Shown one piece after another: positions 36,088 to 64,000 of a DNA stretch of 64,000 nt; position 1 is the stretch's first letter; every line of letters starts with the position of its first letter. The notes under the pieces are model-generated. The model was not told the origin of the DNA. It worked only from the letters and a program-made list of their open reading frames with translations, and ran no database searches. Source of the stretch: Polytrichum commune (taxonomy: Eukaryota; Streptophyta; Polytrichopsida; Polytrichales; Polytrichaceae); the NCBI GenBank assembly GCA_950295325.1, contig OX485807.1, positions 51,984,440 to 52,048,439 of the forward strand, written 5' to 3'. The translations under genes were made by a program, and so were the position numbers.

Positions 36088-36322
36088 CCTCGACGGTGTC
36101 CTCTCATATTCATCACCACATCGCCCAACTTATATTTACGAGCACACAGCTTCCGCCTCTCCCGCACACTAAGCTCCCTCGTCTGATCGGTCTGTGACAT
36201 CGACTCGGCAGTGCCCTCCAAAGATCCTCACTTCAAAGGCCATCAGTTTAGATAATCTTCAACGCTCGAGTCGGAATCTGCAGGGAGCCCGCAGTGTGAA
36301 TTCCTGCGTTGCCGCCAAGACG

Positions 36323-37134
36323 ATGGCAATGGGCCAGAACTTGAACTTCCTGGCAGCATGGGGGATGCTGGTGCTTTGCATGGCCGCCAGCGGGGCGGCT
36401 GCAGGCCGACAGCTCCTCGAGCACGAGCACACCCATAATGTGACGTTCTTCGTCCACGAAGCGATCAACACCGGCTCGGATGCGACGGGTTACATCGTGG
36501 CCGGGCGTGGCGGCGAAACGAGCGAGCTGAACCAGGGTGCGCTGGTTGTGGTGGACAATATCATCACCGAGACGGCCAGCCCCAAATCCAAGCAGCTGGG
36601 CAAGTTCCAGGGCCTGTATGTGCTCGATGGAGGCCAGAAGTACCGCGTTCAAGTCACCGTCATCATCGACCAGCCCGGAGATCTGATCGAGACCACCTAC
36701 GAGGTAAAATATTAAAGAAAATTGAGCAACAAAACCACTCAGAAAATAAAGTACTCCCCTAGAATTTGTTTCAAAATTAAAGATGCCATTCGTCTCATCA
36801 TTGGGTCAACCATATTTGTCTCAGCTGGACTTTGATGTGTGACGAATCTCCGCTGCAATATATTTAGGTATGAAAATTTCATGACGTTTTGTTCTTGGTC
36901 GAGGAGTCGCTTAATTACTTACATGTCGATGGCATTTGGTGTTGCTTTCAGATTCTCGGACAACGCCCATCTTTCAACGCCACAAGTGACAGGCAATTGG
37001 CAGTGGTGGCTGGCACTGGAGTGTTTCTCGGGCAGAAGGGATACGCCCTGGCAGACACTGTGTACCAGAAGCTTGTTGGTACCAAGGGCGCTCGATACAC
37101 CATCCAGAAGTGGACGCTCGTCGTTGGGAAGTAA
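36323..37134 (+). CDS. Dirigent protein, two exons, complete
   Basis: Dirigent family proteins are secreted beta-barrel proteins that steer stereoselective coupling of phenoxy radicals in lignan/lignin-type metabolism in the cell wall. Exons are 36323-36703 and 36952-37134. The 248-bp intron has gag|gtaaaa and ttgctttcag| borders and is phase 0. The product is 187 residues, the usual size. Residues 1-27 form a signal peptide (hydrophobic 'WGMLVLCMAASG'). Family motifs follow: 'VTFFVHE' (40-46), 'GALVVVDN' (72-79), 'GKFQGLYV' (93-100) and, in exon 2, 'LAVVAGTGVFLGQKGYAL' (143-160), which is the dirigent GTG.F..A.GYA block. Without splicing the frame stops after VKY. An upstream in-frame ATG at 36194 would add 43 unrelated residues before the signal peptide, so the ATG at 36323 is preferred. 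The exons are distinctly GC-richer than the flanking DNA. The subfamily and the reaction steered cannot be told. Confidence 0.92.
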
Positions 37135-40330: not shown

Positions 40331-40654
40331 CATTGTCAACAAGGAATTGGGTGCAAAAACAAATGTAGTATGTCAACAAGTGTAGGTGGAACACACTCTC
40401 CAAATGTAGAGTGCGGCACAAGCAAACCCTCCTGGAAATCATAAACAACCAAGTTAGCTCCGTACTTAGACATCCTTCTCCCAATCCATGTTGATTTATC
40501 TTGAACATGGAAAATAATATTTTAGTATATATCATTTTGTAGAGTTATCAAATATTGAAATATCAAAAGTAATGAAAGGCAATGGAAGAGAAAACATCCC
40601 ATACATTCACAAAAAAAATCTCTAATTCATCCCATGAGCTCGAAGGGACCATAG

Positions 40655-41295
40655 CAGAGCCCTACATTGGGTGCCCATACCCATGCCCACCATGCTCATG
40701 GGTTTTGGGTGGGCATGGGTGCGATATTATTGTTCATGGGTGGGCATGAGTGGGCATGGCTGCAATATTATTGTTCATGGGTGGGCATGGGTGGGCATGA
40801 GTGATCATGAGATCATTGCAGCGGTGAGCTTAGCATTGCCAATGAATCGGGATACCACTGCTAAATTCAGTATTCTCTTGTGGTGGAAGCTGAAAGGAGC
40901 CCCCACATTCCCCATCATGTCGCGCGTGGCGCACTCGGTTTTGTGCATCCCTGCATCCAACTCCAAAAAGGAGTCAAACTTCTCGGATGCAGGGAATACG
41001 CTAATCAAGAAGCGCTCCGGGCTGAAGCCAACAATAATGAACAACCTTTTATTTGTCCGATCCAACCAAGACTTGGTGTAGGCGGGTAATGCACATTACA
41101 CAAATTTTGAATACATGGGCGCAATTTGAATAGCATGGGTGGGGCATGGGTGGGCACATGTCATGCTATGTGTGGGCATGGGTGGGCATGGGTGCGCACA
41201 TGTCATGCTATGGGTGGGCATGGGTGGGCATAGGTCGCTGCTGATGGGCATGGTCTGGGTATGGGTGCAATTTAAAAGGAAAATGTTGGGCTCTG
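40655..41295 (+). mobile_element. hAT element with transposase remnant, copy 2
   Basis: Same termini as 13114-14006 but in opposite orientation (CAGAGCCCTACATT on the left, AATGTTGGGCTCTG on the right). It has its own perfect 8-bp duplication GACCATAG (40647-40654 and 41296-41303). It is 641 bp, shorter than copy 1 because it has fewer CCCATGCCCA minisatellite units. Two copies with independent TSDs prove transposition of the shortened form. Confidence 0.9.
40671..41081 (+). pseudogene. hAT transposase C-terminal dimerisation domain fragment
   Basis: The hATC domain of copy 2 begins at about residue 43 with 'DHEIIAAVSLALPM' and continues through 'ILLWWKLKG' and 'SVLCIPASNSKKESNF' to 'KRSGLKPTI', stopping after 'NQDLV' as in copy 1. 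The first about 40 codons are translated minisatellite. The catalytic domain is missing, so it is not an active transposase. The frame is preserved in both copies even though no function is expected, which points to recent common origin. Confidence 0.85.
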
Positions 41296-55990: not shown

Positions 55991-56119
55991 CTAGTAACAA
56001 GAACCAAAATGGTTAGTTATTAGGGGGGGATTGTTAGTATGATTTGGGTCGCCAGGTCTCTAGTGCATTGTTAGTGGATGGGGTGGAGTGGCTTAGTTGT
56101 TAAGGTTTTATGGCTTTAT

Positions 56120-56836
56120 CTATGGGGGGTCTAGTGTTTGGGGCAGTGGTTGGTGGTTTTCTATTCTTCTTTTGTGTAGGAGGATAGCCATGGCATATTT
56201 TATAGCGATAGTATTGATGTTTTTAAAGGTATTTTTAATGATAGGCATGGGTATTTTAAATTTATTTTCGAGTGATTTCATTGAAGGAATGTGTGTAGTG
56301 GCTCTAGCGCCAACAGTGATTATAATAAGGGGGTCAACTTTCCATCCTCTAGCAGCAATACTATCGATTAATGGTTTGTATTTGTTATTTTTTGCTTCGA
56401 GTGTTTCTGGAGAGAATCTATCATTACAGTATGTAAATTCGATGAATTGTATGGTGAGGTTGGGGTCCAAGTCTGTGGGGGGGTCATTTTGGTATGGTAA
56501 TCCTCTAACACAAAGGATGTCAGGTCTAAATCTGGAGTTACAATGGCATCTTTGTGTACCGCATGTGCAAGGGAGTAGCCAATTGGGAACGGTGTTTTCC
56601 TGGGGTGTATTATTGAAGGTGCCCGCGTTCATGAGAATATAACATCGAGATTTTTAAGATGAAATTAGTAGTTTCCTAATTTCCCATACTGCTTTGTTGT
56701 GTCTTTTGACGTGAAGTGAATGTATATGTTGTTGTTTACACGTAAGTAGTACATGTAACCACGTGTCCGGTTTGTATGAGGTGCAAATGGGGCTTGTAAT
56801 AGAGGGATATGTTTGTGTACCGAAGAACAGTTGTTT
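56120..56836 (-). pseudogene. LINE C-terminus: Cys/His motif and PD-(D/E)XK nuclease
   Basis: A single frame, interrupted by TGA (just after 'YMGNA') and TAA (before 'KSRCYILMNAG'), carries 'SPICTSYKPDTWLHVLLTC', then 'HVKRHNKAVWEIRKLL', then 'LPCTCGTQRCHCNSRFRPDI'. After that come 'IQFIEFTYCNDR', 'EAKNNKYKPLIDSI', 'ARGWKV' and 'IITVGARA'. RPD, the E of IEFTY and the K..KY pair are the PD-(D/E)XK signature of restriction-like endonucleases in R2-, NeSL- and Dualen-type elements; the 'GW...VG.R' tail fits too. The first Cys of the CxxC pair is Ser. The nuclease core itself (56632-56120) is open for 170 codons and the stop at its end is probably natural. Confidence 0.8.
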
Positions 56837-57120
56837 TCAAGCATTGCCCATATAGGTTCCTGTTCGGAATTTGATGAGGCATGATTTTTGTTTATCTGTG
56901 ATTTCCAGGTTTTCCCATAATTCGTTAGAAAGTTCTTTACCTATATCTGCATATCCTGTCCATTTGTAAGTGTTGGGGGTTTGTGTGGCCATGTTTTCCA
57001 AGTTGTTTTCCCTATTGTATTTAATAATTTGTTTTTCTAGGAATCTAACGGGGCCTTTATTAGGAATGTCCGTCATTGAGGCTCAAACGTCCTTTTGGTA
57101 GTAGTATGGGGTGGCATGGG

Positions 57121-57529
57121 CACGGGGAGGTCACTTCATTGTCAAGTTGACACCACGTGCGGACAAAGTTTGCTACCCCTATATTACATGTCATATATAA
57201 TTTTAAAATTTATGATATTTTTTCTACATATACATAACCATAGATAGTATCTTTTGTATACTTTTTTGAAATTTTTAGTCATCTTTATTTTTTTAGTAAT
57301 TGTTTTAGTTCAATTCTGTATCATTCTAGTTAGAAATAGTATGTTTTATGAAAAAAACAAATCATCAAATTTAGTTACCACTTTTAACTGTGTCATAGGT
57401 ACTGTGTATATCTACTCATGAAAAAAATTTGATAAAATTTTGACCCATTTTGGTGGTGCAACTTACCAAAAGAAGATTTTTTTTGGCCGCACGTGGTGTT
57501 CAACTTGACAATGGAGTGATCTACCCGTG
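57121..57529. mobile_element. hAT-type MITE inserted in the LINE
   Basis: Begins CACGGGGAGGTCACTTCATT and ends AATGGAGTGATCTACCCGTG. The inverted repeat is about 42 bp long and includes 'caagttga' and 'caccacgtgcgg'. It is flanked by a perfect 8-bp duplication GGCATGGG (57113-57120 and 57530-57537). Removing the insert with one TSD copy rejoins the LINE frame ('PYEHAHA' to 'TPYYYQKDV'). Its GGGGAGGTCACT core resembles the ends of the 7754 and 16796 elements. Confidence 0.9.
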
Positions 57530-57539
57530 GGCATGGGCA

Positions 57540-58197
57540 TGCTCATATGGGTGAATGGCAATTCTGTGCTCTAGTTCTAGCCCTTCTTTTACCAATTTGT
57601 CTGCTTGTTCGTTGCCATCAATGTTGACGTGTGCTCTAACTTTGGTTGTGTCCGGTTTTGAATTAGTTGTACCATGGTGGCGAGGGTAATTTGGTCGGGG
57701 TGGCTATTGTGAAGTGTGGGGTGTTTAATTTGTGTGTTGAGTAAGTATAATACGTTTAGACTATCGGTAAATATGTATGCGGGTTCGTTTGGATATAGTG
57801 TATTAATGGTTGTTAGTGTTTCATGTATTGCTATCATTTCTGCTCGTAGTATGTTTTGGTGTCCATGTAGTCTTTTGGAGATGTTAAGGCCCTTGGGGCT
57901 ATAGATTCCATAGCCGGCTCTTTCTCTTCTCCATTCTCCAAGGTTAATTTCTTTGGGTTTCATAAAAGAGCCGTCTGTGTAGTAGCTGAATTGAGGGTAG
58001 AATTTTAGTGGTAAGTTAGTTTGGTAATTTGGGAGTTGTGGAATAGGTGTGTTATTATTTACAGGTGTGTTTGGATAGTTAGATTTAGCCCATTTTTTGC
58101 TAGGGTTAACGGCGGTATTTACGGGGGTGGGTGGTGCAATTTGTGTGTGAATTTGTAATATTTGGAGGTTATTTGCTATGTTGGTGAGTTGATTCAT
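57540..58197 (-). pseudogene. LINE RNase H domain
   Basis: Ribonuclease H type I, which removes template RNA during target-primed reverse transcription. Catalytic residues are visible: Asp in 'YYTDGSF', Glu in 'ILRAEMIAI', Asp in 'YIFTDSLNVLYLL', and after a one-base shift near 57645 the His/Asp block 'RAHVNIDGNEQADKL'. All four acidic residues and the His are intact. The about 80 residues before the domain are Asn/Pro/Thr-rich linker. Confidence 0.85.
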
Positions 58198-58199
58198 TT

Positions 58200-59857
58200 G
58201 TTTGTAGGTACCGATGTGATTGTTTTGGTGGTGGATACAGAATATTCGTAATGTTGATAATTCTTTCTCGTGATATTGAGTTCGGGGGGAATTGTGGGTT
58301 CTTCGTATATGATGGTGCCTGCTGCAAAGTGGGCAATGATGTGTGTGTCCAAGAATGGGCCAGTGTATGGGTTAAAATTATGGTACCAATCCATATCTTT
58401 TGAAATAAGTATAGTGATTGTATTTGGATCGTTTTTGGCCACAATGCGGGCCCTATGGATGGCTTGTTATAAGTCTGTTGCGTTATGGGGGTGGGCGTAA
58501 CCAATTCCCTTCCATTTTTGGTCAAACGCTTTTCCTAGGGATCCAAATATTCTATCCCTAGATAATGGTGAGTGGAATTGGGTGAATTGTGTGGGACAAG
58601 TAACTGGGGATGAGAAGTATGAATGGTTGATATTGAATGATGTTATTAGGAAATCTAGTATTGGAGTTGGTATTGTATATTGGGCACGTTTAAGTGGGTC
58701 GTTTTTAGGAATACGGTATTTATACCTTTGGTATAGCCACACGATTTCTGTTTCAAATGATTGGGTAGGTGGTTCTAGGCTATGTGGGGTATCTTTAGCT
58801 TGATGGTATTGTTTCCATAACCACAGTAATCTGGTTTTTGGGATGGTAATGAGGTGCCGACCGTTGTCTTCATGTATGTGAGCGACGTCGAATTATGTTT
58901 GAATAGTGTTAGTATTTGTTTTGATGGCACTCTCTGGGTTGCATTCATTAATGGAGATATGTGCCAATAGGATAATTATGGCAGGGATAACGTATCTAGT
59001 GTCTCGTTGTTGTTCTATGGAAAAGTATGCATTGATGATGTTTGAGAAGTGTTTGTGTTGTCTTTTCGTATAATATTGGGTAAGTAGTTCGGTGTTGTGA
59101 CGACTAGTATATGCGTCACAATAGGGGAATAAATTTCTTTGGGTACGCCATTTGTTGTATGTGTTATTATTTGGAGTAATCCATTGGCATAGATATGATG
59201 TGTCTTTTCTTTTTATCCCATTAGAATCTATGAGTTGTCGTTGTTTGTGGTCAAGTATTGTGTGTATGGGAAATTGACGGGGGTTTTTAAGCATATTATT
59301 GGGAGGTGGGGGTAGGTGGGGGACCGGGAGATTTGGGGGGTGTATAGGGGGGTTGGATGTTGAGGAAGGATTTTGTGGTTTATTATTGTGTAGTCATTTT
59401 TTAGGGTTCGTGGAGGGTAGTGGTGTGGGCATGGGAATGGACATTCTCGGTGACAGGAAGGGTGGCAGAATAATTGGTTTGCGATGTTTGATGCACTCTT
59501 TATGAGTTTTGTAGGGTTAGAGTGGTATATTTTAAAGTCATCTGGGTTCATTAAGGTGGCACCATTGGGCATGGTTATTTTGTCTAATTTTATTATATTA
59601 TGCAATAGAAGTTTTTGTAATAGTTTAAGTGAAGTGTTGGGATTTAGGCCCTGTAGATTTTGTGCTTCTTTCAACCATGTGGTTTCGAGTGGGGACGGGT
59701 TTATTAGAAAGGTATCTATTGTGCTTTTTAGGTGGACTTCAGCTTCATGTTTGAATAAGAATAACGTTCTAGTGATAGGTGATCTAACGCAGTGATGGTA
59801 TTTAATGTGGGCTATTTCTTTGGAGCCTCCAAATTTAGCAAGTATAAATTGTGTCAA
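58200..59857 (-). pseudogene. LINE region between RT and RNase H
   Basis: At least four frame pieces (59857-59228, 59294-58893, 58742-58467 and 58525-58169) continue the polyprotein. The first begins 'FILAKFGGSKEIAHIKYHH', thumb-like, and contains a Cys/His cluster 'LFCHPSCHRECPFPCPHH' that could bind zinc. No other domain is recognised. Breaks between the pieces are indels. The region is long compared with simple LINEs, as expected for the large Dualen-type polyprotein. Confidence 0.55.
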
Positions 59858-59969
59858 GCCATAATAGATTTTGCCAAGTCTACCTTTGTCATTGAGGGCG
59901 TTTTATAGTTGTTCTCCAATACAGCGCATGTAGGCATTTTGTAGTGAGAATGCTTCAATTCCGAATAGA

Positions 59970-61750
59970 TCATGTGGAAGTTTGTGTAGCAATATTAGAT
60001 GTGCATTTCGGTAATCCGCATATTGTCTTGTGGAGTGCTATAATCTTTTTGTCGAGTTTTTTGATGGCCGGAATAGAGTATGGTATTGTGTAAAAGCTGT
60101 AGGCTATTCCAACACGTATGATTGTGTTTGCCATGTTGATTTTTTGCTTCATAGTGGCCGGACATGCTACGAGGGCTTGACATTGTTTGATGATTTTTGC
60201 TGTAATGGTGTTTATTTGTATTTTCCATTTAAGTGAAGGTGCAAGATTTATTCCGAGATAAGTGTATGGTTCGTGTTGATTGAAAACTGGAATTGGTAGG
60301 TTTCTATAGTTTATATTAATAGATTGGATCAAGACTTTGAATGTTATGAGGTTCATTTTAGATTTATTAGGACATCCGGTCATTGCGCATTTGGGTATTC
60401 CGAGGTCCATTCTTGCCCATTCACAGAATTTGTCTAATTTGTTTAGTTGTACTTGTAATGATTTTAGTTTGTTAGCAATAGCTGCTAAGTCATTTGCATA
60501 TGCTGCAGATGTAATTTTTACTTTAAATGTTCCGAAGGTGTATCCATTATCGCCTTGTTGTAGCCATCTAAGGAGGGGTTCTAAAAATATTATAAATAAA
60601 TATGGGCTGATAGTGTCTCCTTGTATTGTACTTCTTTGAATGGGGATAGGTAGGGTTTTACCAAAGTATTTTCCAGTAAATATGGTAGATGCTTGTGACT
60701 ATATGTTTCTGATGAGGTTTAGGGCGTCAGTTGGATAACCAAGGCCCTTCATTATGGTTAAAAGTCTTGCATGGTCAATGGAGCCGAAAGCATTTTTGAA
60801 ATCAATGTAGAGGATGTATATATCTTGGTTCGTAAGTCTAGCATCTTCTAATGTTGCAATGAGGAGTTGAAGTTGTCTAGATGTTCCTCTTTCGGCTCTG
60901 AATCCTTCTTGATTGTCATGTAGTATTTGGTATATTTCTCCATAAGCTGAAAGGATAGAGGTTAGTATGCTTGTGTGCTTGAGTATAATTTATATATGGT
61001 GTTAGCTAGTGCGATAGGTCTGTTGTTGGTAAGTTTTGACGGGTCACCTTTCTTATATAGTAAAACTGTTAAACTAGTTTTCCACGATGCGGGGATTTGT
61101 TTTTGTTTGTAGCAGTGTTTGAAAAATAAATAGAGTAGTTTGTGAAATCGTGGGGGCATATTTTTTAAGATTGAATTAGGAATTTTGTCTGGGCCCGGGG
61201 CTTTGTTGTTGCCTAGGTTTTTAAGGCAGAAGTCGTATGTTTCTTGGTCAAAGTATGTGTGCAGGGGAATTTGGGGTTCACCACATTGATCAATTATAAA
61301 TCCTTCTAGGTCGTGCCATGGGTATTGCCTAACACCACATGTGTAGTATGATGGGTGAGTATTATGATAGTGACATATGGGTACTGTTGGGCGGTTACTG
61401 ATGGATTGTTGGATGTGTATTTCTTTTGCAATGTCTTCAGGGCTAGTTAAGATATTGTTTTGTCTATCCGTGATTGAGTCTAGGGGGGAAGTTTCGGAAT
61501 GTTTGAAGACTTTCCTATTTATCTTTTTAGGGTTTTTTTCATACATTTGTCGGTATTTTGATACAGCTTTTAGAATACAGTCTTTGGTATATTTTGTGGT
61601 GATTTTTCTGGCATTTTTATTAGCGGTTTTTGCGATGGCAGCTACGATGTCTATCCATTCATTTGGAAGGGTGGCTATTGTGGGTGGGTGCGGGATTTGC
61701 ACATTTTGGTGGTTTCGAATTTCATTTAGGATAGGGTTTGCCAGTATGGG
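59970..61750 (-). pseudogene. LINE reverse transcriptase domain, broken
   Basis: RT motifs in order: 'NNKAPGPDKIPNSIL' and 'LLYKKGDPSKLTNNRPIALA' in one frame, then, after a shift near 60970, 'HDNQEGFRAERGTSRQLQLL', 'LYIDFKNAFGSIDHARLL' (motif A Asp present), 'QGDTISPYLF' (motif B), 'SAAYANDLAAIA' (motif C) and 'YLGINLAPSLKW' (motif E). Motif C should be YADD; the first Asp is Asn (codon at 60494-60492), which would abolish polymerisation. An in-frame TAG at 60701-60699 separates motifs A and B. It is clearly of APE-LINE type and not a retroviral or LTR RT. Confidence 0.85.
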
Positions 61751-64000
61751 TTGTTTTTTGCAATGTATATAGTTTTCTAATAAGGTTATATGTATCAAGG
61801 TGTTTTTTCCATTCTTTAGATAGCTTTCGTGGCAGGAAGCCACCTTGTTGTGCAGTTTTGTTTGTGAGGGATGGTATTGGGGCTGCTTTGCAGATTTTTT
61901 CAATGGTTTCAGAGATTTTTACTACAATATTATCTAGAGTTGTACAGGCTTCTTGCCATTGATCAGGGTTGAAGTGGTTGTGGTCCTCTAGTAATTTGGT
62001 TAGTTCGTTTAGTTGCGTGGAGTATGTTTCGAAAAATTCTATATTAAAATTTTCTAAGTTTTCCGGAGGTATCGGGTTTAGTATTCTGGTTGGTGTGATA
62101 TTCGTGGAGAATAGGGATCTAGCTATAAGTGTGTTTAGGGGTATGTGTAGAGTAACTGGGTAGTGGTCTGAGTTTAGATTCATGTTTGTGTTTGTTGTGG
62201 AGGTAAATCTGCTATTGTCTGGTGAGTTGATATAGAAGCCGTCTATAAGGCTAGTTGATGTGTAATTATAGCCTCCTTGTCTGGAGAGGATAGTGTCCGT
62301 AGGAATATATTCTAGATTGAGGGTTGTGGTGAAGTTTTTCCATTGTATATCTTCTTCTTGTGGTGGTGTATTGTTATTATAGTTTTGCCTACCAGTGAGT
62401 GCAATGTCTCTGTTAAAATCACCACATAGGATGTGCGTGTGGTTTGGATGTGCAGTGATTTGATTGGTAATTACGGTTTTGAAGTACGGAATGAGGTGGA
62501 TATCTTCTAAGTGTGTGGGCATATACATGTGTATGATTAGCCATGGTAGGAGTGGGTGATTGTTTATTTTTATTATTTGTAAATATGGGGAGATGTTTGC
62601 TTGTGAGGGGATCTTGGTGACGTTTCCAGGAAATGCGTATTTGTTATGAATGAGTGTGAGTAAGCCACCTCTTCTGGGGGTGTAAGGCATTCTTTGTTGT
62701 ATACATCTTGTGAGGGTGTGCATGTTGTTAAAAATAAGTTTGTATTTAGGGAATAAGTTCTGTATGTGTTTTGTTGATTTAGTTGCTGTCAATTTGGTTT
62801 CTTGGATATTAATCATTGTAGTATTTTTGAAGGAGTAATTTATTAGGCTTTGTAGATTTGGTAAGGCTGTGTTAAACGATGAGGCATTCCAAGTTATCAT
62901 GTTTGTTTCGTGGTTGGTATTTATGATGTTTTTTGGAGTTGGTGTAGGGGTGTTTGGAAGTAGAGGCGGGTGTGAGTATTCATTTATGTTTTCTAGGCAA
63001 CGGAGGGATTCAGTTATTAATTTTTCTGGGAGATAGGGGAATTTTCTTTGGAGTGTGACTGGAGTATTTGGGATTTCTTGGCTGTGGATGAATTCATATA
63101 GTTCAGTATGTATAGTGTTTTTGGGGAATATTATGTCTTGGTTATTTTCTACAAATGTAGTGTATGGGTGTTTTGTTAGAATATGCCGTTCTGGGGGGTT
63201 GTTAAGGTTGGCTAGCCTAATGATAAGCGTGTTGGTCCATATATTGGTAAAGTGGTGAATGTGTGGCTGGGCTAGTATATTGTTACATGTGTTTATTGAG
63301 GGGCTTATAATGATGATTAAGGCGTATAGTATGTGAGTTGATAGGGAATGGCTTTGTGTTTGGATGTATTGATGTAAGTTTGTATACATAGTGGTTGCTT
63401 GGTGATGTAGTGGATGATTATATTTTAGTATGGGTACAAATGTGGTAGCTATGTGTTGATATTCGGGTTGTAGTTTTATCGTATTTGGAATAAAATATTC
63501 TTTGGCTCTCTTTTTGTGTGAGGCGGGATGTGTGTGTAAAATATCAGGCATTGGTCCGGGGTTGGGTTCTATATCTCCACATTTTAATAATGTTAGTTTG
63601 TTAATGAAGTAGTACCCATGAAGTTGTATTGTTTTTGGTATTTTCTTGTTTTTTTTTATATATTTGGTAAGTATGAATCTGGTTGTAGTAAAAATGTTAG
63701 GTAAGGCAGGTATTTTGTTTGATATTTGTTTGGTTGAGAAGTGTGTATTTGTGTTGTCTTTAGGTGTGTGGTCTGTTATTGTGTTAGGTGTCCAGTTGTT
63801 TGCGATTTGGTATTTGTTTTTATTTTTGTGGGGAGGCCGGGAGGCCGAAGCCGTTTTATGTTGAAGGCGATGTTTCGATTGAGGTTTATATTTAGAATAA
63901 AATTTATATTTAATGTGTATAGAACGGTTGTAGTGAGATTTGTGTAGGTGTGGGTATATTGTTTGTTTTGTTTTCTGGCGAGGCCGGTAGGCCGAGGCCA
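61722..64000 (-). pseudogene. LINE N-terminal region, 2A-like site and APE endonuclease (partial)
   Basis: One frame is open from the window edge (64000) to 61722, at least 759 codons. The first about 150 residues are Lys/Asn/Thr-rich and unrecognised. They end in the 2A-like motif at 63578-63552, followed by Met (63551). Counting from that Met, the APE (exonuclease-endonuclease-phosphatase) domain spans about residues 215-470: 'MITWNASS' (218-225), 'QETKL' (250-254, catalytic Glu), 'RRGGLLTLIH', 'LCGDFNRD' (375-382), 'SLIDGFYI' (434-441) and 'SDHYPVTL' (461-468, catalytic Asp-His). All key residues are present. Near 61750 a run of six A's probably lost or gained a base, moving the frame into the RT part. 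Whether the protein starts beyond the window cannot be seen. Confidence 0.85.
63552..63578 (-). other. 2A-like ribosome-skipping motif
   Basis: Codons spell GDIEPNPGP, preceded in frame by 'KLTLLKC', giving the full D-x-E-x-N-P-G-P consensus with the upstream Leu-rich helix typical of 2A-like sequences. In 2A sites the ribosome skips the last Gly-Pro bond and releases the upstream polypeptide. Here that would separate the N-terminal part from the APE-RT part. 2A-like motifs are known near ORF2 starts of some animal and trypanosome non-LTR elements. Activity here is inferred from the motif only. Confidence 0.8.

Follow-up and report, generated by a model that had tools for sequence, protein, structure and literature searches.

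A decayed LINE with APE-type and restriction-like endonucleases and a PCIF1-like domain in the genome of Polytrichum commune

We analysed a stretch of 64,000 nucleotides of Polytrichum commune DNA (contig OX485807.1, positions 51,984,440 to 52,048,439), called here the window, and all positions are counted from its first letter. Open reading frames in all frames were examined together with the sequence between 56120 and 64000, and this revealed a chain of open pieces on the minus strand running from 63998 down to 56120. Read from 5' to 3', the chain contains a 2A-like motif, an APE-type endonuclease, an R2-like reverse transcriptase (RT), a PCIF1-like domain, an RNase H domain, a CCHC zinc knuckle and a predicted R2-type restriction-like endonuclease (RLE). 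The sense strand of this LINE is rich in A and C and poor in G (roughly A 0.39, C 0.27, G 0.11 and T 0.23, measured in 500-base rows over 56000-64000), a composition unlike that of the flanking DNA. G was most frequent at the first codon position in all eight pieces of the LINE, and seven of the eight followed the order 1>2>3. Since both the open frame and the A/C-rich composition reach the end of the window, the element has its 5' end beyond that point. At the opposite end the A/C-rich composition stops near 56010, which leaves a 3' UTR and an approximate 3' end at 56010-56119 (minus strand). No second copy of the LINE was found within the window; this is the only copy followed along its length, and APE, RT, PCIF1-like domain and RNase H were seen in none of the homologues described below, which cover the CCHC-RLE end alone. 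Scanning the window for Rfam families and tRNA genes gave no hits, NCBIfam and PHROGs gave no match above chance, and weak Pfam rows (DUF4177, Rad4, SoxZ and others) were treated as chance.

The 2A-like ribosome-skipping motif, LTLLKCGDIEPNPGP, was read directly from the sequence at 63552-63596 (minus strand). The codons upstream of it (63597-63998, minus strand) include no in-frame Met within the window, the start codon of the LINE being either located beyond the window or lost. A CGGCCT motif pair occurs twice, 147 bases apart, close to the window end (63834-63994), and possibly corresponds to 5' repeat units of the LINE. The APE-type endonuclease lies at 62050-62930 (minus strand) and displays WN, QET, GDFN and SDH motifs. 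This piece matched PF14529 with an E value of 2.2e-6 and a score of 27.9 bits for a cut-off of 27.4; the whole ORF, with 25.4 bits, was slightly under this cut-off. PF03372 scored 21.8 bits on the same piece, for a cut-off of 24.5, and was under cut-off on the whole ORF as well. A PDB sequence search with the APE ORF returned nothing relevant.

The reverse transcriptase occupies positions 59970-61918 (minus strand), split between two frames and interrupted by one in-frame stop, and was matched by PF00078 in two pieces (E values of 2.7e-10 and 2.2e-7). The copy is dead: its coding pieces hold seven in-frame stops, the frame changes six times, and YAND stands at the catalytic motif of the RT. 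When the RT was compared to PDB sequences with phmmer, one TAG being read as Y, R2 reverse transcriptases were matched with E values from 6.6e-21 to about 1e-12 and L1 ORF2 at about 1e-7. The corresponding bit scores were 77.9 for turtle R2, 51-52 for Bombyx R2 and 35.2 for human L1. For calibration, the fragment of turtle R2 scored 127-131 bits with Bombyx R2 and 61-63 with L1. Measured in this way, the RT appears to be placed outside R2, yet nearer to R2 than to human L1, these two being the comparators. A grouping of the RT within plant L1/RTE, the outcome that the sequence-only reading had set against its own proposal, is disfavoured for L1 (78 bits with R2 against 35), human L1 serving as comparator. 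No relatives of the RT were detected in public viral contigs, a collection not expected to contain a plant LINE.

The RNase H domain was located at 57599-57981 (minus strand) by PF00075 (E value of 1.4e-6), with one frame change inside the domain. Its last part, in the other frame, matched PF00075 under the cut-off (E value of 0.0014), the motif residues D, E, D, H and D could be read by eye, and matches to PDB sequences were weak. Between RNase H and the CCHC, the LINE is interrupted by a foreign 408-bp element with terminal inverted repeats, a MULE-like MITE (57122-57529), identified by its inverted arms and by a 9-bp direct repeat at 57113-57121 and 57530-57538 that corresponds to the target duplication. 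When the empty site was reconstructed, the reading frame continued without change from the last part of RNase H into the linker-CCHC-RLE segment. This single frame led us to reject the possibility of a stray RLE belonging to a neighbour.

The linker and CCHC zinc knuckle (56654-57112, minus strand), whose first Cys is unreadable in this copy, are followed by the RLE at 56120-56653 (minus strand). The latter was recognized by a PD..E..K..KY signature (56510-56527, 56429-56446 and 56369-56392, minus strand), by its homologues, by structure models and by fold searches. Public sequence collections contained 462 homologues of the RLE at E<=1, many of them on ENA contigs that reach about 1.1 Mb in length, and the family may be widespread. 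D45, E72, K88, K91 and Y92 were all retained in 93 of the best 120 of these 462 homologues. Because candidate length was limited in the search, these best 120, with 126-308 residues, match the C-terminal part of the protein alone, downstream of RNase H, and have no bearing on the link between RNase H and the RLE. Three homologues (P0018, P0053 and P0084) run unbroken from the linker and CCHC into the RLE. No relatives of the RLE were found in public viral and prokaryote contigs, where a plant LINE is not expected.

Pfam gave no match on 56120-56653, and PDB searches with the RLE, performed both with the sequence and with an alignment profile, retrieved neither R2 nor any nuclease. Four of 39 RLE homologues matched PF15518 (L_protein_N) under the cut-off, with a best E value of 0.0019; we take this family to be a bunyavirus endonuclease of the same fold class as the RLE, and the match is a hint only. 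A Chordopox_A20R match in seven of the 39 (best E value of 0.00031) was treated as chance. Using the predicted model of the relative P0084 as a Foldseek query, the six best matches were R2 proteins, and in this fold search the linker, CCHC and RLE matched R2 as one module. The comparison with restriction-like nucleases proposed earlier was thus negative for sequence profiles, apart from the hint below the cut-off, and strongly positive, with R2, for the fold of the relative's model. From this model, the C-terminal segment is predicted to be an R2-type RLE, with a CCHC and the PD-(D/E)XK core fold.

The sequence-only reading had announced a 2A-like site and, in this order on the minus strand, an APE nuclease, an RT, an RNase H and a C-terminal PD-(D/E)XK nuclease. 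The 2A-like motif is present, and Pfam, motifs, homologues and fold matches agree on the series: PF14529 passes its cut-off on the APE piece, PF00078 matches the RT twice, RNase H combines a PF00075 match with its five motif residues, and the nuclease combines conserved signature residues with the R2 fold match of the relative's model.

That reading had overlooked a PCIF1_WW-like domain of the PCIF1/CAPAM methyltransferase family, which sits between the RT and RNase H at 58509-58784 (minus strand). PF12237 matched there with an E value of 7.1e-10 and 39.2 bits for a cut-off of 31.1, over profile positions 11-102 of 176. The frame itself extends over 58194-59393 with two stops, and the E value in this longer frame was 3.6e-9. 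In the PDB, the PCIF1 structure 6irx was matched with an E value of 0.0054 by the short piece and of 0.081 by the longer frame. One reversed and two shuffled control sequences yielded zero PCIF1 matches, on which we rejected a chance match; one of the shuffles gave an unrelated match (E value of 0.058). The PCIF1-like piece shares the A/C-rich, G-poor composition of the LINE, unlike the flank. No relatives of it were found in public viral and prokaryote contigs, where a plant LINE is not expected. Titles and abstract beginnings of the open-access papers retrieved mentioned no PCIF1-like domain in retroelements, which is weak evidence for absence, and no methyltransferase domain was found in this literature for RLE-bearing non-LTR elements. 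A work on adenine methylases in eukaryotes by Iyer et al. in 2016 may touch on PCIF1-like proteins in retroelements.

PCIF1 requires an NPPF catalytic motif (PMC11345611). In our own alignment, AHPHN stands at the NPPF position of the decayed copy, and the Pfam match stops just before it. Because AHPHN replaces NPPF, and because the terminal 90 aa, taken alone, matched no PCIF1 model, methyltransferase activity of the domain appears doubtful from its sequence. The unreadable NPPF may reflect decay, divergence or a role limited to binding. The LINE has the PF12237 domain in common with PCIF1/CAPAM, the cap-adjacent m6Am methyltransferase, and differs from it in that the domain is embedded in a retrotransposon protein and, in this copy, lacks a readable NPPF.

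We then compared this architecture with known elements. To our knowledge, R2 lacks APE and RNase H, both of which are present in the LINE. The 2005 description of Dualen reportedly includes a cysteine protease domain, and we know of no PCIF1-like domain among those listed for Dualen. No protease was found by Pfam in the LINE pieces scanned, which belong to a decayed copy whose 5' part extends beyond the window. Dualen/RandI is described as encoding both APE and RLE (PMC4640811, PMC3636483); RNase H is listed for Dualen, which is taken as evidence for APE-type LINEs having arisen by replacement of the RLE by APE (PMC4640811). The clade is listed for green algae only (PMC4438587), LINE/Dualen is reported in cryptophytes (PMC12747079), and Dualen is present in all the Chlamydomonas relatives compared (PMC8226300). 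A search of the open-access literature for Dualen in land plants was matched by PMC4438587 and PMC8226300 alone.

The LINE thus resembles Dualen/RandI in combining APE, RLE, RT and RNase H in one element, and is unlike it in its land-plant host, in the additional PCIF1-like domain and in that the pieces scanned gave no protease. These data confirm the architecture: a land-plant LINE with two endonucleases, of which the RLE is R2-type, and with a PCIF1-like domain. The proposal of a Dualen-type lineage in this plant is supported insofar as APE, RNase H and RLE occur together in a land-plant LINE, and was incomplete in missing the PCIF1-like domain. We conclude, with a probability of roughly 0.8, that a non-LTR retrotransposon of a Dualen/RandI-like, dual-endonuclease type left a dead copy at this locus, and that a PCIF1-like domain of the methyltransferase family forms part of its main protein. 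The element probably belongs to the Dualen clade, to which it is likened by domain content, its RT being compared with R2 and human L1.

An I-group-like LINE with APE, RT, RNase H and CCHC could have gained an R2-type RLE independently, giving a dual nuclease by convergence outside the Dualen clade. I-group elements have the order APE, RNase H and then a downstream CCHC, which is the order seen here. Outside the L1 groups described in PMC5348765, the CCHC is placed downstream of RNase H. However, its RT matched R2 far better than human L1, a one-sided result as the comparators include no I-group RT, and the R2-like linker, CCHC and RLE behave as a single module in their match to R2, so that we regard such convergence as improbable. 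A chimera formed by nesting, in which an APE LINE fragment lies beside an RLE element of separate origin, or in which a captured gene fragment supplied the PCIF1-like piece, seems less probable again. The six frame changes, the one genuine nested insertion and the observation of a single copy would fit such an origin, but no frame change separates RNase H from the CCHC-RLE once the nested insertion is taken out, the linker and CCHC continue into the RLE in relatives, and the PCIF1-like piece has the composition of the LINE, unlike the flank, within a run of coding pieces that is otherwise collinear.

L1 elements abound in plant genomes, and the RLE has neither a Pfam match nor a sequence match to R2 in the PDB, as would be expected if an ordinary plant L1 or RTE LINE had been misread at its C-terminus. 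Plant L1 elements with an archaeal-type RNase H are likewise APE LINEs with RNase H in plants. Unlike these elements, which have R in place of H and an upstream CCHC, the LINE carries an RLE, an RNase H with H and a CCHC downstream of RNase H. With an RT that is also closer to R2 than to human L1, assignment to plant L1 was rejected, and a misread L1 or RTE element, already disfavoured, is scarcely credible.

If the Dualen/RandI-like reading is correct, the 2A motif would release the main protein from a product encoded upstream, and the main protein would reverse-transcribe its own mRNA in a target-primed manner. If R2 is a guide, binding and nicking of the target, which gives the primer, would fall to the CCHC-linker-RLE module; RNase H would strip the RNA template, and APE would act as a second nuclease on the other strand or at non-specific sites. 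In the least certain step, the PCIF1-like domain might act on or bind the 5' end of the transcript, at the cap-adjacent adenosine, either by methylation or by RNA binding only; this function is a hypothesis only. More specifically, a land-plant LINE family with two endonucleases could use a PCIF1-derived cap-adenosine methyltransferase to mark or protect its own mRNA, or to tell its transcripts apart from host RNA, ahead of target-primed reverse transcription, a scenario that we consider rather unlikely. A land-plant relative of Dualen, with hundreds of homologues known for its RLE end, would extend the intermediate APE/RLE state and make the role of each nuclease testable, and a PCIF1-like domain in a LINE would connect retrotransposition with RNA cap modification. 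The combination of two DNA-cutting domains with a cap methyltransferase-like one is unusual and bears on how retrotransposons acquire and combine their tools.

Elsewhere in the window, a dirigent-like gene was identified at 36173-36715 (plus strand; PF03018, E value of 1.4e-11), which fits a land-plant host, as dirigents are known only from land plants, and a fragment of the C-terminal dimerisation region of a hAT transposase at 40638-41081 (plus strand).
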